A DNA stretch of 64,000 nt from Pelosinus fermentans DSM 17108 (GTDB taxonomy: Bacteria > Bacillota > Negativicutes > DSM-13327): assembly GCF_000271485.2 (NCBI RefSeq), contig NZ_AKVN02000001.1:4594501-4658500 (forward strand), read 5' to 3'. Numbering within the stretch: the stretch's first letter is position 1; each line of letters begins with the position of its first letter. The translations under genes and the position numbers were made by a program. Shown piece by piece: positions 30,867 through 38,576 of this stretch. The notes under the pieces were generated by a model that worked only from the letters and a program-made list of their open reading frames with translations, was not told the DNA's origin and searched no databases.

Positions 30867-32060
30867 TCAGGCTGCTAGCTTTTCTTTTTTTAATGCCAAA
30901 GCAGGTATTGCCAAACTAACCAATATAAGAGTTACACCAAATAGATAGGGTAAATTAATGTGAATATCAAATAAGATTCCTGCAATGGATGGGCCAATGA
31001 TAATTCCCAAACTAGTGTAAGTATTACTCATTCCAGCCACAAAGCCTTGTTCTTCGCCTGCCATCTTGGACAATAACGTATGAATTGCGGGGCGTAAAAT
31101 GGAAGTGAAGGCAATATGAAGTGTTGTTACAAGAAGTATGTACCCAAAGCTCCCTGGAAGCAGCATTAGTGCTAACGATGCCGCTGATAAAACCAAACTC
31201 ATATTGATAACGCTTTTTTCACCAAAACGGCGCAGCAGCCAATCAATCAATAGTGCCTGGACAAGAACACCCATTAACACACCTACCGTAAGTAGAATCG
31301 CTATATCCTTAGGTGTGTATCCATATTTCACATCCACATACATCCCAAACACCACTTCCACACTCACTAACCCAAATGTCAAAATAAAAATCAATACCAG
31401 AAGAAAAAAGTAGGGAGCCTTAAAAGACAACGCAACCTGTGAGAAGATATTTTCACTTTTAATCAGGGAATTTCTGGCAACTAATTGTTTTTCTTGGGAT
31501 AAAGTCTCAGGTAACAACAAAAAAGCTGCAATCATGGAGAAAGCCGAAGCAGCCGAAGCCACATAAAAGGGAAGGCGTAAGCCATATTCAGCCAAAAAAC
31601 CTCCAATGCCAGGCCCAATTACAACACCGAAAGACATGGCTGCTCCTATCCAGCCGAGGCTTTTGCCGCGATTTTCCTCTGTGGTGATATCTGCCACATA
31701 GGCCGTAATTGCCGGAGTTGTAAAGGCAATACCAATTCCGCCAATCAGTCTGGATACATACAGCATCCACAACTCGTTAGCCACGCCGAAAAGATACTGT
31801 GATACACTAAATAAACCGATTCCAGAAACAATGATAATTTTGCGTCCATACTGATCCGCCCACTTACCTGCAAGAGGTGAAAATAAAAATTGGGTGAATC
31901 CCATAGCCGACACCAAATAACCAAGAGTTGCGTTATTTACCCCAAAATCCTGCACAAATTTAGGTAAAACCGGAATGATCAGCCCAACCCCCACTTGAGA
32001 AATAAACATATTCACAATCAAGATCATAAGTGGCATGTTAGAATATTTCAACTTACTCAT
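30867..32060 (-). CDS. MFS transporter, divergent from the TonB receptor
   Basis: 397 residues with about twelve spans. 'GKWADQYGRKIIIVSG' and 'YVSRLIGGIGIAFTTPAITAY' are DHA1 hallmarks. ATG 32060 is chosen: AGGA lies about 9 bases upstream, while ATG 32081 overlaps no ribosome site. It points away from the TonB receptor across a spacer with a Fur-like box and a TetR-type operator. A role as siderophore or metal-chelate exporter is attractive but is inference only. Confidence 0.85.
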   Translation of the reverse strand: MSKLKYSNMPLMILIVNMFISQVGVGLIIPVLPKFVQDFGVNNATLGYLVSAMGFTQFLFSPLAGKWADQYGRKIIIVSGIGLFSVSQYLFGVANELWMLYVSRLIGGIGIAFTTPAITAYVADITTEENRGKSLGWIGAAMSFGVVIGPGIGGFLAEYGLRLPFYVASAASAFSMIAAFLLLPETLSQEKQLVARNSLIKSENIFSQVALSFKAPYFFLLVLIFILTFGLVSVEVVFGMYVDVKYGYTPKDIAILLTVGVLMGVLVQALLIDWLLRRFGEKSVINMSLVLSAASLALMLLPGSFGYILLVTTLHIAFTSILRPAIHTLLSKMAGEEQGFVAGMSNTYTSLGIIIGPSIAGILFDIHINLPYLFGVTLILVSLAIPALALKKEKLAA

Positions 32061-32189
32061 TTGCAAAAATCCTACTTTCATAAAAATTCAGTATTCGAAA
32101 AATCGCCTTGCTCATTGTCTTTTATAGCTAGTGAATCAATCCATGCCTCTGTGATTATACATAATCTAAAAATAAAATGTAATTTAGTA

Positions 32190-32265: not shown

Positions 32266-32283
32266 TTTGACTGTCGTCAGTCA
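32266..32283. promoter_or_regulatory. TetR-type operator 1
   Basis: TTGACTG and CAGTCAA form an inverted repeat with a 4-base centre (TCGT). The same half-sites recur at 32476-32491. A related palindrome lies in the tetR promoter at 37896-37913. Confidence 0.65.
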
Positions 32284-32440: not shown

Positions 32441-32460
32441 ATGAAGAAATAATACATATA
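32441..32460 (+). other. Three-codon leader ORF (ATG AAG AAA TAA) with its own ribosome site
   Basis: In the TonB receptor leader, AAAGGAG stands 6 bases before ATG-AAG-AAA-TAA. It could be a minimal leader peptide or the relic of an old MKK start of the receptor. Confidence 0.35.
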
Positions 32461-32475
32461 TTTTTTACAACACAC

Positions 32476-32491
32476 TGACTGCCGTCAGTCA
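32476..32491. promoter_or_regulatory. TetR-type operator 2
   Basis: TGACTG and CAGTCA around CCGT, nearly identical to operator 1, 113 bases before the receptor start. Confidence 0.6.
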
Positions 32492-32588
32492 ATTATTCGA
32501 CAAGGTTGTTATTTCCTCATAATTTTTATTACATAAGGTCATTATCTATTTTTATAATTACAATAGCGAAAAATAAGGAGAGATTACC

Positions 32589-34514
32589 ATTAACAAGCAG
32601 CAAAAAAAATTATTATGCTCACTGCTAAGCAGTGCGATCGTATTAAGTACTTCCGGAATCGTAGCCGCTGAAGAAGCTTCTGCAACAGAAGAAACCTATA
32701 ATTTCGATGAATATGTGGTAACTGCCAACCGTATGCCTGTAAAGCAGACGGAGGTTGCAGCAAATGTTACTATCATTACCCAGACAGAAATTGAAAAAGG
32801 CGGCTTTACCAGCGTACCTGACATTCTAAGCAAAAGTAATGTTGAACTACAGACAAACGGTAAAAGTACCGTTCCCGTTCTCAATGGAGATGATCGCGTA
32901 TTAATCCTAGTGGATGGCCGCAGAATGAATTGGGATCACCTTGTCATCAGTGGCAACAGCCATGCTGGTGTAAATCTGGACATCTTGCCTGTAAAAAACA
33001 TTGAACGAATTGAAATTGTCCGTGGCCCTGCGTCTTCATTATATGGCAGTGACGCTGTCGGCGGTATTATTAATATCATTACCCGCAAAGCAAAAACTCC
33101 CAGTACCTCCATTGCATCAGAATTTGGCAATTGGGGCCTACGTCGTTATAGCCTCACCACCGAAGGCAGAGAAAATGGGATTGGCTATTTGATCACTGCA
33201 GAAAAGAAAAAGAGAGATAGCTTTGAGTATAAGAGCCCTAAAACTGGTAAAACAATTACTAGCCAAGATAGTCAGATAGATCAAGAGTTTATGACGATGA
33301 AGCTAGATAAAGAATTTAGCAATGGAAATTCTCTTTCTCTGGATATAGAGCATGGGAATGATGAATCTGGTTTTGGTATTCCTAATGCATACTCTTTCTG
33401 GCAATACCCAGGTGGCTATCGAAAAATAGTGGATAATAACGTTGCACTAACTTATCATTGGGGACAAAATAAGGGATCAGAAAATTTCTTTCGCGTATAT
33501 CGCAACACCACTGAGCAAGAATACTTTAAATCATTAGACTCCATCGCTAATCTTTATTCTAACGGCTTTAATTGGCAAGAAAACTGGCAACTTAGTAAAG
33601 GTCATACCCTGACTGGTGGTGCAGATTGGCGCGAAGAACATATCGATGACGAGATCTCCATTAATCAAGGCTATACAAATAGAGCACTCTTTCTCGAAAA
33701 TCGCTGGTCATTAGCAAATAACTGGTCAGTAACTGCCGGGACGCGCTATGACGATCATAGCATCATCGGCAGTAATACTACTTCTCGTGTCACGGTAAAT
33801 AAAGAATTAAATACTACTACCAATGTCTATGCTTCATGGGGACAATATGTAAAGAATCCTACGCTCTTCGATCTTTTCGTCGATAATGGCTGGACAATTG
33901 GTAATCCAAATCTTAAACCGGAAGAAGGAACTACAACGACTCTAGGTATCAATACCAAACTAGGCGATGGAACAAAGCTGCAAGCCAGTATCTACAGCAG
34001 TCGTCTCAAAAATGCCCTAGAATTTATGGCTGGAAAAGATGGAGATTCTGGCTATATCCCTGGTTATTACTATAATGTTAGTAATGAAAAAAGACAGGGA
34101 TTAGACTTAAATCTATCCCGTGAATTATCACCTCAATGGAACGTAAGTGTTGGTTACGCTTACAATAAGACTGAAATTAAAGACAGTACATCAGCTGACT
34201 ATATAGCTTATGCTCGTAACACCCAGCCAAATGGTTATCGTTTGAATGTTCAGTATGATCAGGACCAATGGAATGCAGGTCTTATCCTGCGAAGTGCAAC
34301 GGGTCGTAGCCTTACAGAATTCACCTCTAAATCCTACGTGACCCTTGATATGATCGTTAACTACAAAATCAATCCTGACACGCGTATTTATCTCAAAGGA
34401 TATAACTTGACAAATAAGGCGTATGAGCTAAGTTCTACCAATGGATACGGGTATCCTGGAACCTATCCAATGCCAGGACGAAACTTCTACGTCGGCGTAG
34501 AACATCGTATGTAA
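32589..34514 (+). CDS. TonB-dependent outer membrane receptor (probable ATT start)
   Basis: 641 residues if started at the ATT at 32589. GGAG (32577-32580) is 8 bases upstream, and translation from there gives a clean signal peptide ('KKLLCSLLSSAIVLSTSG' region, ending ~'IVAA'). The TonB box 'DEYVVTANR' follows (~40-48), then the plug domain (~50-160, 'RGPASSLYGSDAVGGIINII') and a 22-strand-type barrel ending 'GRNFYVGVEHRM'. No ATG, GTG or TTG lies in frame between the upstream stop and the TonB box; the first, GTG 32715, would delete the signal and TonB box. It imports a siderophore, heme or cobalamin complex. The Fur box favours iron. Confidence 0.85.
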   Translation: MNKQQKKLLCSLLSSAIVLSTSGIVAAEEASATEETYNFDEYVVTANRMPVKQTEVAANVTIITQTEIEKGGFTSVPDILSKSNVELQTNGKSTVPVLNGDDRVLILVDGRRMNWDHLVISGNSHAGVNLDILPVKNIERIEIVRGPASSLYGSDAVGGIINIITRKAKTPSTSIASEFGNWGLRRYSLTTEGRENGIGYLITAEKKKRDSFEYKSPKTGKTITSQDSQIDQEFMTMKLDKEFSNGNSLSLDIEHGNDESGFGIPNAYSFWQYPGGYRKIVDNNVALTYHWGQNKGSENFFRVYRNTTEQEYFKSLDSIANLYSNGFNWQENWQLSKGHTLTGGADWREEHIDDEISINQGYTNRALFLENRWSLANNWSVTAGTRYDDHSIIGSNTTSRVTVNKELNTTTNVYASWGQYVKNPTLFDLFVDNGWTIGNPNLKPEEGTTTTLGINTKLGDGTKLQASIYSSRLKNALEFMAGKDGDSGYIPGYYYNVSNEKRQGLDLNLSRELSPQWNVSVGYAYNKTEIKDSTSADYIAYARNTQPNGYRLNVQYDQDQWNAGLILRSATGRSLTEFTSKSYVTLDMIVNYKINPDTRIYLKGYNLTNKAYELSSTNGYGYPGTYPMPGRNFYVGVEHRM

Positions 34515-34706: not shown

Positions 34707-35807
34707 ATGACACAATTAAAACAGCGACTATCCATTGAATACGATGCTGCCATCCAAAAGAATCATGTTTTTTTATTTTTGCTGACAGGACTCGGTATAC
34801 TTGCCTTACTCTCCATGTTACTGGCAGTTGGTTTGGGCACAGTAAAAATTCCACCTGACATTGCCTATAAGATTATTGCTTACAAACTGTTTCATTTAAA
34901 TATCGATAATGTAATGAGCCAGGTGTCCCCTGCTCATATGGATATCATATGGCAAATCCGTTTGCCTCGTGTTATTCTGTCTGCTGTTGTAGGCGCAGGT
35001 CTTGCTATGTGCGGCACTGTCATGCAGGCTTCTGTGCAAAATCCTTTAGCAGAGCCTTATATTCTTGGTATCTCCGCCGGTGCTTCTCTCGGTGCTACTT
35101 TCTCCATCCTTATCGGCAGCGCCTCGGGATTATTCTTCGGTCTTGGTACTGCCTTTTGGGCATTTATCGGGGCATTGGGAGCATCCTTCTTTGTTCTGGT
35201 CTTATCAGGTATCGGGGGCAGAATGTCAACAGTGAAAATGGTTCTATCCGGTTCCATTGCCAGTGCTTTATTCATAGCCCTCTCAAATTTACTTATATAT
35301 ATATCCAATGATGCTGAAGGCATTCGCAGCGTCACCTTCTGGAATATGGGATCATTAGCCGCAGCTAAATGGGATAATCTAATGTTACCCGTGGTTGGAA
35401 TTACCCTGTGTTGTCTATTCTTTCTATTTCAATCCCGCACCCTCAATACCTTACTCTTAGGAGAGGAAGCTGCTATCACCTTAGGCATCAATCTGACGAA
35501 AGTACGCCGCCTCTATATGATGATTACAGCTCTCATTACAGGACTGATCGTTTCTGTCTGCGGCATTTTTGGTTTTGTGGGACTGGTAATTCCCCACGTG
35601 GTGCGTGGTCTAGTCGGATCAGACCACAAACGTTTAATGCCAGGTACTATCCTAATCGGAGCTATTTTCTTAACATGGGCCGATGTATTGGCACGCATCA
35701 TTTTAAAAAGTGGTGAATTGCCCATCGGTATCATCACGGCCTTGGTGGGAGCCCCCTTTTTCATGTATATTCTGTTTAAGCAGTCCTTTGATTTTGGAAA
35801 TAAGTAA
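34707..35807 (+). CDS. Iron-siderophore/cobalamin ABC transporter permease (FecCD family)
   Basis: 366 residues with about ten membrane spans, preceded by an N-terminal extension of roughly 25 residues. 'RLPRVILSAVVGAGLAMCG', 'NPLAEPYILGISAGASLGA' and 'GFVGLVIPHVVRGLVG' are family signatures. AGGAG lies 13 bases upstream of the ATG, a long gap, so translation may be weak. It forms a homodimeric channel with the ATPase encoded 11 bp downstream and takes the ligand from the lipoprotein encoded after it. Confidence 0.93.
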   Translation: MTQLKQRLSIEYDAAIQKNHVFLFLLTGLGILALLSMLLAVGLGTVKIPPDIAYKIIAYKLFHLNIDNVMSQVSPAHMDIIWQIRLPRVILSAVVGAGLAMCGTVMQASVQNPLAEPYILGISAGASLGATFSILIGSASGLFFGLGTAFWAFIGALGASFFVLVLSGIGGRMSTVKMVLSGSIASALFIALSNLLIYISNDAEGIRSVTFWNMGSLAAAKWDNLMLPVVGITLCCLFFLFQSRTLNTLLLGEEAAITLGINLTKVRRLYMMITALITGLIVSVCGIFGFVGLVIPHVVRGLVGSDHKRLMPGTILIGAIFLTWADVLARIILKSGELPIGIITALVGAPFFMYILFKQSFDFGNK

Positions 35808-35818
35808 GGAGGTTCGGA

Positions 35819-36595
35819 ATGGATCTGGAATTAAAAAATATTAATGTAAAGCTTGGCGACAAAAACATTATTCAAGATATTTCCTTGGCGGTTGCCAAAG
35901 GAGAATTTGTAGGCATCATTGGCCCCAATGGCAGTGGAAAGTCCACACTATTGCGCACCATCTATCGAATCATTCAACCCAACAGCGGCATAATTTTGCT
36001 GGACGGACAGAATCTAAAGGATGTTAAATTATCCGAATCCGCTAAAAAAATGGGCGTCGTAGGACAATTCAACAGCATTAACTTTGATTTTACAGTGCTG
36101 GACATGGTTATGATGGGGCGTACACCTCATAAAAGCTTATTAGGTTCAGATACCCCTGCCGATTATGCAATTGCTATGGATTCCATCCAAAAAGTAGGTA
36201 TGGAGAAACACGCTAATCGTAGTTTTTCCACCTTATCCGGGGGTGAGAAGCAGCGAATTATATTAGCGCGCGCTTTGACCCAGCAGCCTCAGTTATTAAT
36301 TTTAGATGAACCGACAAATCATTTGGACATTAAATATCAGCTCCAGATTCTTTCGATTGTGAAGTCACTTGGTATTGGTGTACTTGCGGCATTGCATGAC
36401 TTAAGTCTGGCAGCCATGTACTGCCATAGATTATATGTATTAAAAGAAGGCAATGTAATCACAAGTGGCGTACCGAATGAAATTCTAACTCCCGAACTGG
36501 TCCGAGATGTATATGAAATTGAATGCGACATTCAGGAAAACCCAGCTACAGGCTATCTTTCCATTACCTATTACCCCACTAGTCGCCATGCTTAA
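35819..36595 (+). CDS. Iron-siderophore/cobalamin ABC transporter ATPase (FecE/BtuD family)
   Basis: 258 residues. Walker A 'GPNGSGKST' (~38), signature 'LSGGEKQR' (~140), Walker B 'LLILDEPTNHLD' (~160) and the switch His in 'LHDLS'. It powers the permease encoded just upstream. AGGAGG precedes the ATG. It lies in the same operon as the permease and binding protein. Confidence 0.95.
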   Translation: MDLELKNINVKLGDKNIIQDISLAVAKGEFVGIIGPNGSGKSTLLRTIYRIIQPNSGIILLDGQNLKDVKLSESAKKMGVVGQFNSINFDFTVLDMVMMGRTPHKSLLGSDTPADYAIAMDSIQKVGMEKHANRSFSTLSGGEKQRIILARALTQQPQLLILDEPTNHLDIKYQLQILSIVKSLGIGVLAALHDLSLAAMYCHRLYVLKEGNVITSGVPNEILTPELVRDVYEIECDIQENPATGYLSITYYPTSRHA

Positions 36596-36608: not shown

Positions 36609-37649
36609 ATGAAAAAAACGACACTAAACCTAATTCCCCTTATCCTATGCTTTATAATCATCCTTTCACTAGCAGGCTGTGGCCAATCCAATCCTGCTGC
36701 ACCAAAAGCTGCCTCAACCCCTTCCCAAAACAATGATGCAAAGTATCCCGTTACCATTTCTAATTACGACAGTAATGAAAACCCAATTTCCTATACCTAT
36801 AAAAAAACTCCTGAAAGAGTAGCCATTATTCACCCAGGCGCAACGGAACTGCTGTTAGAATTGGGCCTTGAAGACCGTATTTTATCCACCATCGCCCCCT
36901 ATGGTGCTCCTTTAGACCGGATAGCCGAGAAATATGCCAAGCTTACCATCATGAAGGCCAAATATCTTCCTTCCCAAGAAGAATTACTGGAAATGCAGCC
37001 CGATATGATCATTGGCTGGGCTCATAATTTCCGTTCCAGCGAACTGGGAGATGTAAAGTCCTGGCAGGAACGTGGCGTTGGAACTTTTGTTATGCAAAGT
37101 ACACTAACGAAAAGCCAACCGACTGTCGATACTGTCGTCTATGCCTTTGTTGCTGATATGGGTGCCATTTTCGGTATTCAGGAAAAAACAACCTCTTACA
37201 TCCAAAATCTCAAGGATCGGATTGCCAAAGTCCAAGCAGCGACGAAAGACATTCCGCAGAAAAAAACGGTGATTGTACTGCAAGATCATTTCAATGGTAC
37301 CTTTTCGGTCTATGACAGCCACTATTTAATTAGCAATATGATCGATCTTGCCGGCGGCAAGAACCTTTGCCAGGACATCACCTCCTTTGTCGGTGCCGAA
37401 AAAGTGCTGGCCTTTGATCCGGATTTCATTATCTATGTATCTCATGATAAAAATGAAGATGCAAAGGATCTTACTGATGAAGAAGCATTAAAAGCGTTGC
37501 ATGAAGTCTCAACATTACAAAGCATGAGAGCGATTCAGAAAGGCAACATCATTAACCTTCCTTTCTTCACTGTGAATAACGGCGGAATCCGTACAGTTGA
37601 CGCAATCGAGAAAATTTCTCATGGACTCTATCCTGAACAATACCAATAA
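36609..37649 (+). CDS. Iron-siderophore/cobalamin ABC transporter substrate-binding lipoprotein
   Basis: 346 residues. A lipoprotein signal 'LILCFIIILSLAGCG' places the acylated Cys at ~24. The periplasmic-binding domain of the BtuF/FepB type (PF01497-like) starts with 'RVAIIHPGATELLLELGLED'. ATG 36609 has GGAG about 8 bases upstream; the open frame from 36507 overlaps the ATPase gene and is rejected. It captures the iron chelate after TonB-driven entry and delivers it to the permease. Confidence 0.92.
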   Translation: MKKTTLNLIPLILCFIIILSLAGCGQSNPAAPKAASTPSQNNDAKYPVTISNYDSNENPISYTYKKTPERVAIIHPGATELLLELGLEDRILSTIAPYGAPLDRIAEKYAKLTIMKAKYLPSQEELLEMQPDMIIGWAHNFRSSELGDVKSWQERGVGTFVMQSTLTKSQPTVDTVVYAFVADMGAIFGIQEKTTSYIQNLKDRIAKVQAATKDIPQKKTVIVLQDHFNGTFSVYDSHYLISNMIDLAGGKNLCQDITSFVGAEKVLAFDPDFIIYVSHDKNEDAKDLTDEEALKALHEVSTLQSMRAIQKGNIINLPFFTVNNGGIRTVDAIEKISHGLYPEQYQ

Positions 37650-37934: not shown

Positions 37935-38576
37935 ATGATTAGAGTTACGAAAGATCCTGAAATACGCCAGGCTGAGCTGATGGATGCAGCGCAAGAACTG
38001 TTTATTTTACTGGGATATCAGCAAACTACAGTAAGTACGATTGTGAAAAAGGTGGGCGTAGCCCAAGGAACATTCTATTATTATTTTGCTTCTAAAGAAG
38101 CCATTTTAGAAGCTATATTTGCCCGCCATGTGACAACTATGCTCCTGGAAGTTCAGACCTTTTATTCCGACCAAAATACGGTATTAGAGAAATTACAACT
38201 ATTTTTTAACCTTTTCTACAAATTATGCTACTGTGATGAACCTGGCCTAATTGGCAAGATTCTATATAAAGAAAAACAAGGTTTGTTAATTAATAGGCTT
38301 TGGCGGCAAATGCTACTCACTACACAGCCAATTTTTAAAGGAATCCTAGAGCAAGGCAACAAAGAAGGACTCACAAATGTCATACATATGGATGAAACAT
38401 TTTCTTTTTTTGCTGGCATTATGGCTGCCTTACTGGAAGCTAGCTCGCCTTTAGAATTTGGTCATGAAGTAGATCCAGTCATTGTAGCGAATAAATTAGA
38501 AATTGCGGGAAAATTAATTGAGAATTTATTAGGAGCACCTGCTGGCAGCATTCATTTGAAGCCTCTTACATCATAA
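37935..38576 (+). CDS. TetR-family transcriptional regulator
   Basis: 213 residues. An N-terminal HTH (~15-60, 'TVSTIVKKVGVAQGTFYYYF') is followed by a helical ligand-binding domain of unknown effector. GAGAGG precedes the ATG at 37935 by 8 bases; the upstream ATG-like frame from 37863 covers the promoter and is rejected. A palindrome in its own promoter resembles two sites upstream of the TonB receptor 5.5 kb away. It therefore probably controls the whole iron-uptake locus and itself. Confidence 0.88.
   Translation: MIRVTKDPEIRQAELMDAAQELFILLGYQQTTVSTIVKKVGVAQGTFYYYFASKEAILEAIFARHVTTMLLEVQTFYSDQNTVLEKLQLFFNLFYKLCYCDEPGLIGKILYKEKQGLLINRLWRQMLLTTQPIFKGILEQGNKEGLTNVIHMDETFSFFAGIMAALLEASSPLEFGHEVDPVIVANKLEIAGKLIENLLGAPAGSIHLKPLTS

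Follow-up and report, generated by a model that had tools for sequence, protein, structure and literature searches.

The TonB-dependent receptor gene of the window (the whole 64,000-nucleotide stretch of the Pelosinus fermentans DSM 17108 genome that was analysed) is very likely translated from an AUU codon at position 32589, with a strong Shine-Dalgarno sequence (SD) compensating for this start, and its output is expected to be low and sensitive to IF3. The AUU stands at the conserved start of the protein with no usable ATG, GTG or TTG, it follows a strong SD, the codon is conserved in 5 of 8 Pelosinus species, and purifying selection indicates, indirectly, that the codons downstream are translated. 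AUU starts are already known; a TonB receptor as carrier belongs to a gene class for which a literature search, of incomplete coverage, found no earlier report of an AUU/ATT start.

After the stop codon TAA at 32574-32576 the window reads GGA GAG ATT ACC ATT AAC AAG CAG CAA AAA AAA, the second ATT being that of 32589. The receptor frame is, as the sequence-only reading had described, devoid of ATG, GTG and TTG from this stop to GTG 32715, which lies in the TonB box. The features of the gene are the following.

32574..32576, + strand: TAA stop closing the receptor frame upstream
32574..32580, + strand: Shine-Dalgarno sequence TAAGGAG, 8 bases before the ATT, with AAGGAG identical in 6 of 6 aligned species
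32589..32591, + strand: predicted ATT start codon, found in 5 Pelosinus species
32589..34514, + strand: TonB-dependent receptor, 641 amino acids from the ATT, with signal peptide, Plug (PF07715) and beta-barrel (PF00593)
32589..32672, + strand: signal peptide, cut after ...GIVAA, assigned by inspection and under purifying selection in the ATT alleles
32715..32717, + strand: GTG, the first canonical in-frame codon, inside the TonB box EYVVTA and without SD

The same reading had claimed that ATT 32589 opens a complete signal peptide behind an SD 8 bases upstream, and this was confirmed. The UAAGGAG is a strong SD at proper spacing, and the ATT-initiated product, (M)NKQQKK-LLCSLLSSAIVLSTSGIVAA with the cut before EEA, presents a full signal peptide as judged by inspection, with a charged NKQQKK start, a hydrophobic stretch and an AxA-type end (GIVAA before EEA), followed by the Plug and the barrel. 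Two neighbouring codons were rejected as starts, ATT 32583 for its spacing of 2 from the SD and ACC/ATC 32586 for its spacing of 5, the ACC having in addition two mismatches from AUG.

The product matches both the Plug (PF07715, 5.8e-19) and the beta-barrel (PF00593, 8.4e-38) models, and the presence of both domains places it among the TonB-dependent receptors; its score against the vitamin B12 receptor model TIGR01779 was 194.5 bits, far below the curated cut-off of 599.7. Considering that a start at GTG 32715 loses the signal peptide and cuts the TonB box, such a product, to judge from the family, could not make an outer-membrane or secreted receptor. A search for an RNA element at the receptor start gave no Rfam match in the window, and the initiation region folded no better than its shuffles (z -0.10 and -0.31).

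The nearest named genomes to the window are those of Pelosinus, class Negativicutes, and the receptor gene was compared in the 8 Pelosinus genomes (eight species) that carry it. The SD and the ATT were found together in five of them: the window, P. fermentans JBW45, UBA6563, the SRR12377472 MAG and P. propionicus DSM 13327. These five alleles read AAGGAG-AGATTACC-ATT-AAC/AAT-AAG, with ATC replacing ACC in P. propionicus. In this last species there is no in-frame ATG, GTG or TTG within 60 codons of the ATT, and the ATC, one codon upstream of it and 5 bases from the SD, is a second near-cognate candidate; in UBA6563 the signal peptide contains an in-frame ATG, at codon 24. Among the other three species, G005 and G006 present ATG exactly at the codon of ATT 32589, and bin.69 presents it one codon upstream (AAGGAGCGATT-ATG-ATT-AAT). 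In the other genera, this same codon is mostly ATG, with AAT/AAC AAA/AAG after it. An ATG at this very codon, or one codon earlier, indicates that the protein starts here.

A sequencing or assembly error at 32589, raised earlier as an alternative, has practically no chance of being correct and is refuted by the same ATT in the separate assemblies of four other species, one of these assemblies, that of JBW45, having been completed by PacBio sequencing to a coverage of 250-fold (PMC4582584). It had also been suggested that close relatives with a different, well-placed start could reveal a broken gene; the comparison did return ATG at or next to the codon in some of them, yet the window allele is not thereby broken.

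These relatives are what the idea of a gene silenced, or turned into a pseudogene, by the loss of its start would have in its favour, and we consider this explanation, also put forward by the sequence-only reading, highly improbable, because the codons after the ATT are under purifying selection. Over codons 2-38, the comparison of JBW45 with P. propionicus showed 10 synonymous and 0 replacement changes, that of the window with P. propionicus 7 and 1, and that of UBA6563 with the SRR12377472 MAG 4 and 4. Pooling the first and third pairs, whose tree paths are disjoint, gave 14 synonymous against 4 replacement changes, with P about 2e-6 (binomial against site numbers), a value that is indicative since the pairs were pooled after the counts had been seen, the neutral expectation is based on sites only and transition bias is ignored. 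In view of this selection in the ATT alleles, the signal-peptide region is very probably translated in genes for which the ATT is the only start. Additionally, the receptor frames have no internal stops in any of the five ATT species (one frame ends at a contig end), and the receptor body is itself under purifying selection, with pN/pS of 0.07-0.45. The ATT at 32589 as the start of the receptor is, therefore, supported by its presence in five species and by the selection on the codons that follow.

The receptor gene is a mosaic: JBW45 and P. propionicus share its first 40 codons and its 3' end, with another body in between. The first 40 codons have 97% amino acid identity to the window in both genomes, most blocks of the body about 40-80%, with a renewed rise in the last block; the flanking stretches have about 77-95% DNA identity. 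The ATT has been kept with three unlike receptor bodies, and it looks like the body was swapped by recombination while the ATT-bearing 5' end was retained.

A start upstream in another frame, either at a TTG 83 bases upstream or at the ATG AAG AAA TAA at 32441, followed by a frameshift into the receptor, perhaps at a run of eight A, appears extremely improbable. The +1-frame reading from the TTG passes the A8 run in 4 of the 5 ATT species, and the four-codon ORF at 32441 is preceded in the window by AAAGGAG; in P. propionicus, however, both the TTG frame and the mini-ORF's ATG are lacking and the run of A is shorter, no SD precedes the upstream TTG, and the ATT with its SD sits right where the conserved protein begins. 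The mini-ORF was also rejected as a leader because its ATG is absent in P. propionicus.

For the AUU start, the UAAGGAG at spacing 8 would set the 30S subunit on AUU 32589, where the initiator tRNA could pair with the codon at two of its three positions and would give an fMet start and a normal signal peptide. As IF3 discriminates against AUU, receptor output would be only a fraction of the AUG level, and a shortage of IF3 should raise it.

Initiation at AUU has been established for a number of genes, including infC, which in E. coli is under autoregulation by IF3. The E. coli pcnB gene, which lies outside translation, is reportedly limited by an AUU start (work attributed to Binns and Masters 2002, cited in PMC13009471); pcnB is like the receptor in being a gene outside translation with an AUU start, and unlike it in being a cytosolic enzyme gene with no signal peptide. 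To the earlier statement that ATT starts are known mainly from infC it should be added that they are not confined to it, pcnB, Borrelia pncA and S. aureus cvfC1 being published cases. In all eight Pelosinus species infC reads GGGGGTGAGCGACA-ATT and lacks canonical codons ahead of the conserved beginning of the protein; on this ground Pelosinus cells probably use AUU for initiation. The receptor shares with infC the AUU start without a usable canonical alternative; unlike infC, it has no part in the translation machinery, and its ATT occurs in a single Pelosinus clade only.

Translation from AUU is also within the capacity of clostridia (PMC11040787). In S. aureus, the AUU/AUA starts of cvfC1, ccpN and citZ give about 10% of the AUG output in poor medium, and conserved non-canonical starts carry extended SDs (PMC13009471). 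The receptor resembles cvfC1 (AUU) and ccpN (AUA) in its conserved non-canonical start and strong SD, whereas these are other genes whose starts were mapped by initiation profiling, that of the receptor being known from comparative sequence. Streptomyces sigR, which has a GTC start repressed by IF3, is alike in its strong SD and in conservation within one genus only, and differs in its codon and in that the repression by IF3 was shown by experiment (PMC5472188). The pncA gene (BBE22) of Borrelia burgdorferi starts at AUU and its AUU-made N-terminus was truncated by annotation, as a start at GTG 32715 would do in the receptor, while its function and phylum are other and its start is backed by biochemistry and a crystal structure (PMC13398362).

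Start-site prediction leans heavily on ATG, GTG and TTG (PMC5472188), so AUU-started genes risk truncation; in the receptor, a truncated annotation loses the signal peptide and part of the TonB box. With its conserved AUU, this surface-receptor gene would be one on which expression limited by the start codon can be tested in a gene that encodes no translation factor.

The receptor gene is the first of a cluster that also comprises a FecCD permease, an ABC ATPase, a PF01497 binding protein and a TetR-family regulator, and it faces an MFS gene in divergent orientation.

30867..32081, - strand: divergent MFS transporter
32268..32283, no strand: second copy of the palindrome, TGACTGTCGTCAGTCA, nearer to the divergent MFS gene, putative operator
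32476..32491, no strand: palindrome TGACTGCCGTCAGTCA, putative operator
34707..35807, + strand: FecCD-type ABC permease
35819..36595, + strand: ABC ATPase of iron/B12/siderophore type
36609..37649, + strand: periplasmic substrate-binding protein (PF01497)
37935..38576, + strand: TetR-family regulator

The two near-identical palindromes, TGACTGnCGTCAGTCA, lie between the divergent MFS and receptor genes, and sites resembling them are also found 5' of orthologues in other genera. They are probably the operator of the adjacent TetR-family regulator.

Given the AUU start, we see about even chances that it is nearly neutral and no regulatory device, i.e. that an ancestor within Pelosinus underwent an ATG to ATT change that was tolerated, the strong SD making up for it. 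The ATT is limited to one lineage, the outgroups having mostly ATG at this codon; the ATG of bin.69, one codon upstream, is one base change from the ATC of P. propionicus at that same codon; and the flanks of the ATT clade have diverged modestly, so that one invariant codon alone proves little. In a tree of two flanking genes (midpoint root, for drawing) the five ATT species stand apart from bin.69, and a single loss of ATG at the 32589 codon in a Pelosinus ancestor is the simplest reading. Against tolerance, no ATT lineage has regained ATG at 32589, where one base change is enough, and the ATT persisted through the replacement of the receptor body; the two together favour some benefit.

It is possible, with less than even chances, that the ATT is kept as an IF3-linked translational control, by which the receptor would be held low and coupled to IF3 or the growth state. 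The precedents of infC, pcnB, sigR and ccpN, the conservation of the ATT in five species and the ATT start of infC itself in Pelosinus are in line with such a control, but the ATT is not genus-wide, and transcription control of the operator type is apparently already present. Judging by the canonical ATG in three of the eight species, the ATT is not indispensable, and its absence from these three leaves tolerance a strong rival.

Other ATT starts were surveyed in 2.0 Mb, or 40%, of the window's genome, with 1,521 coding frames. A pairwise screen against JBW45 was dropped because this relative is too close and conserved leaders gave many false candidates; instead, a codon-score screen retained frames in which a good SD precedes a non-canonical codon and no canonical codon makes a plausible start, and the list was inspected by eye. 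Three clear genes were left, all with ATT: the TonB receptor, infC and an LPG_synthase_C gene. Their small number, together with the recurrence of the receptor's ATT context in four other Pelosinus species, speaks against a chance occurrence. An amidohydrolase-like frame (G000:C1:3869162-3870533, - strand) was rejected, a one-base frameshift after a TTG start being likelier. The survey suggests a route to further such genes from comparative sequence alone.

G000:C1:4410389-4411279 (the window's genome), - strand: LPG_synthase_C (PF09924) gene, with ATT behind AGGAGG

In 24 of 30 aligned Negativicutes loci from several families, the corresponding codon of the LPG_synthase_C gene is ATT, preceded by an SD. 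In fourteen of these 24, the 12 codons on each side of the ATT include no canonical one, and two other loci of the 30 carry ATG or TTG at the ATT codon. Several of the 24 have an in-frame GTG that lies three codons before the ATT and lacks its own SD, which makes the start less certain in those loci. The gene is a probable class-wide case of an ATT start outside infC. That infC, this class-wide gene and the Pelosinus TonB receptor form a small AUU-started set in Negativicutes under common IF3 control is a tentative and rather doubtful proposal. In G005, the middle part of the LPG_synthase_C gene is apparently missing, its matches covering residues 1-172 and 217-296 of 297.
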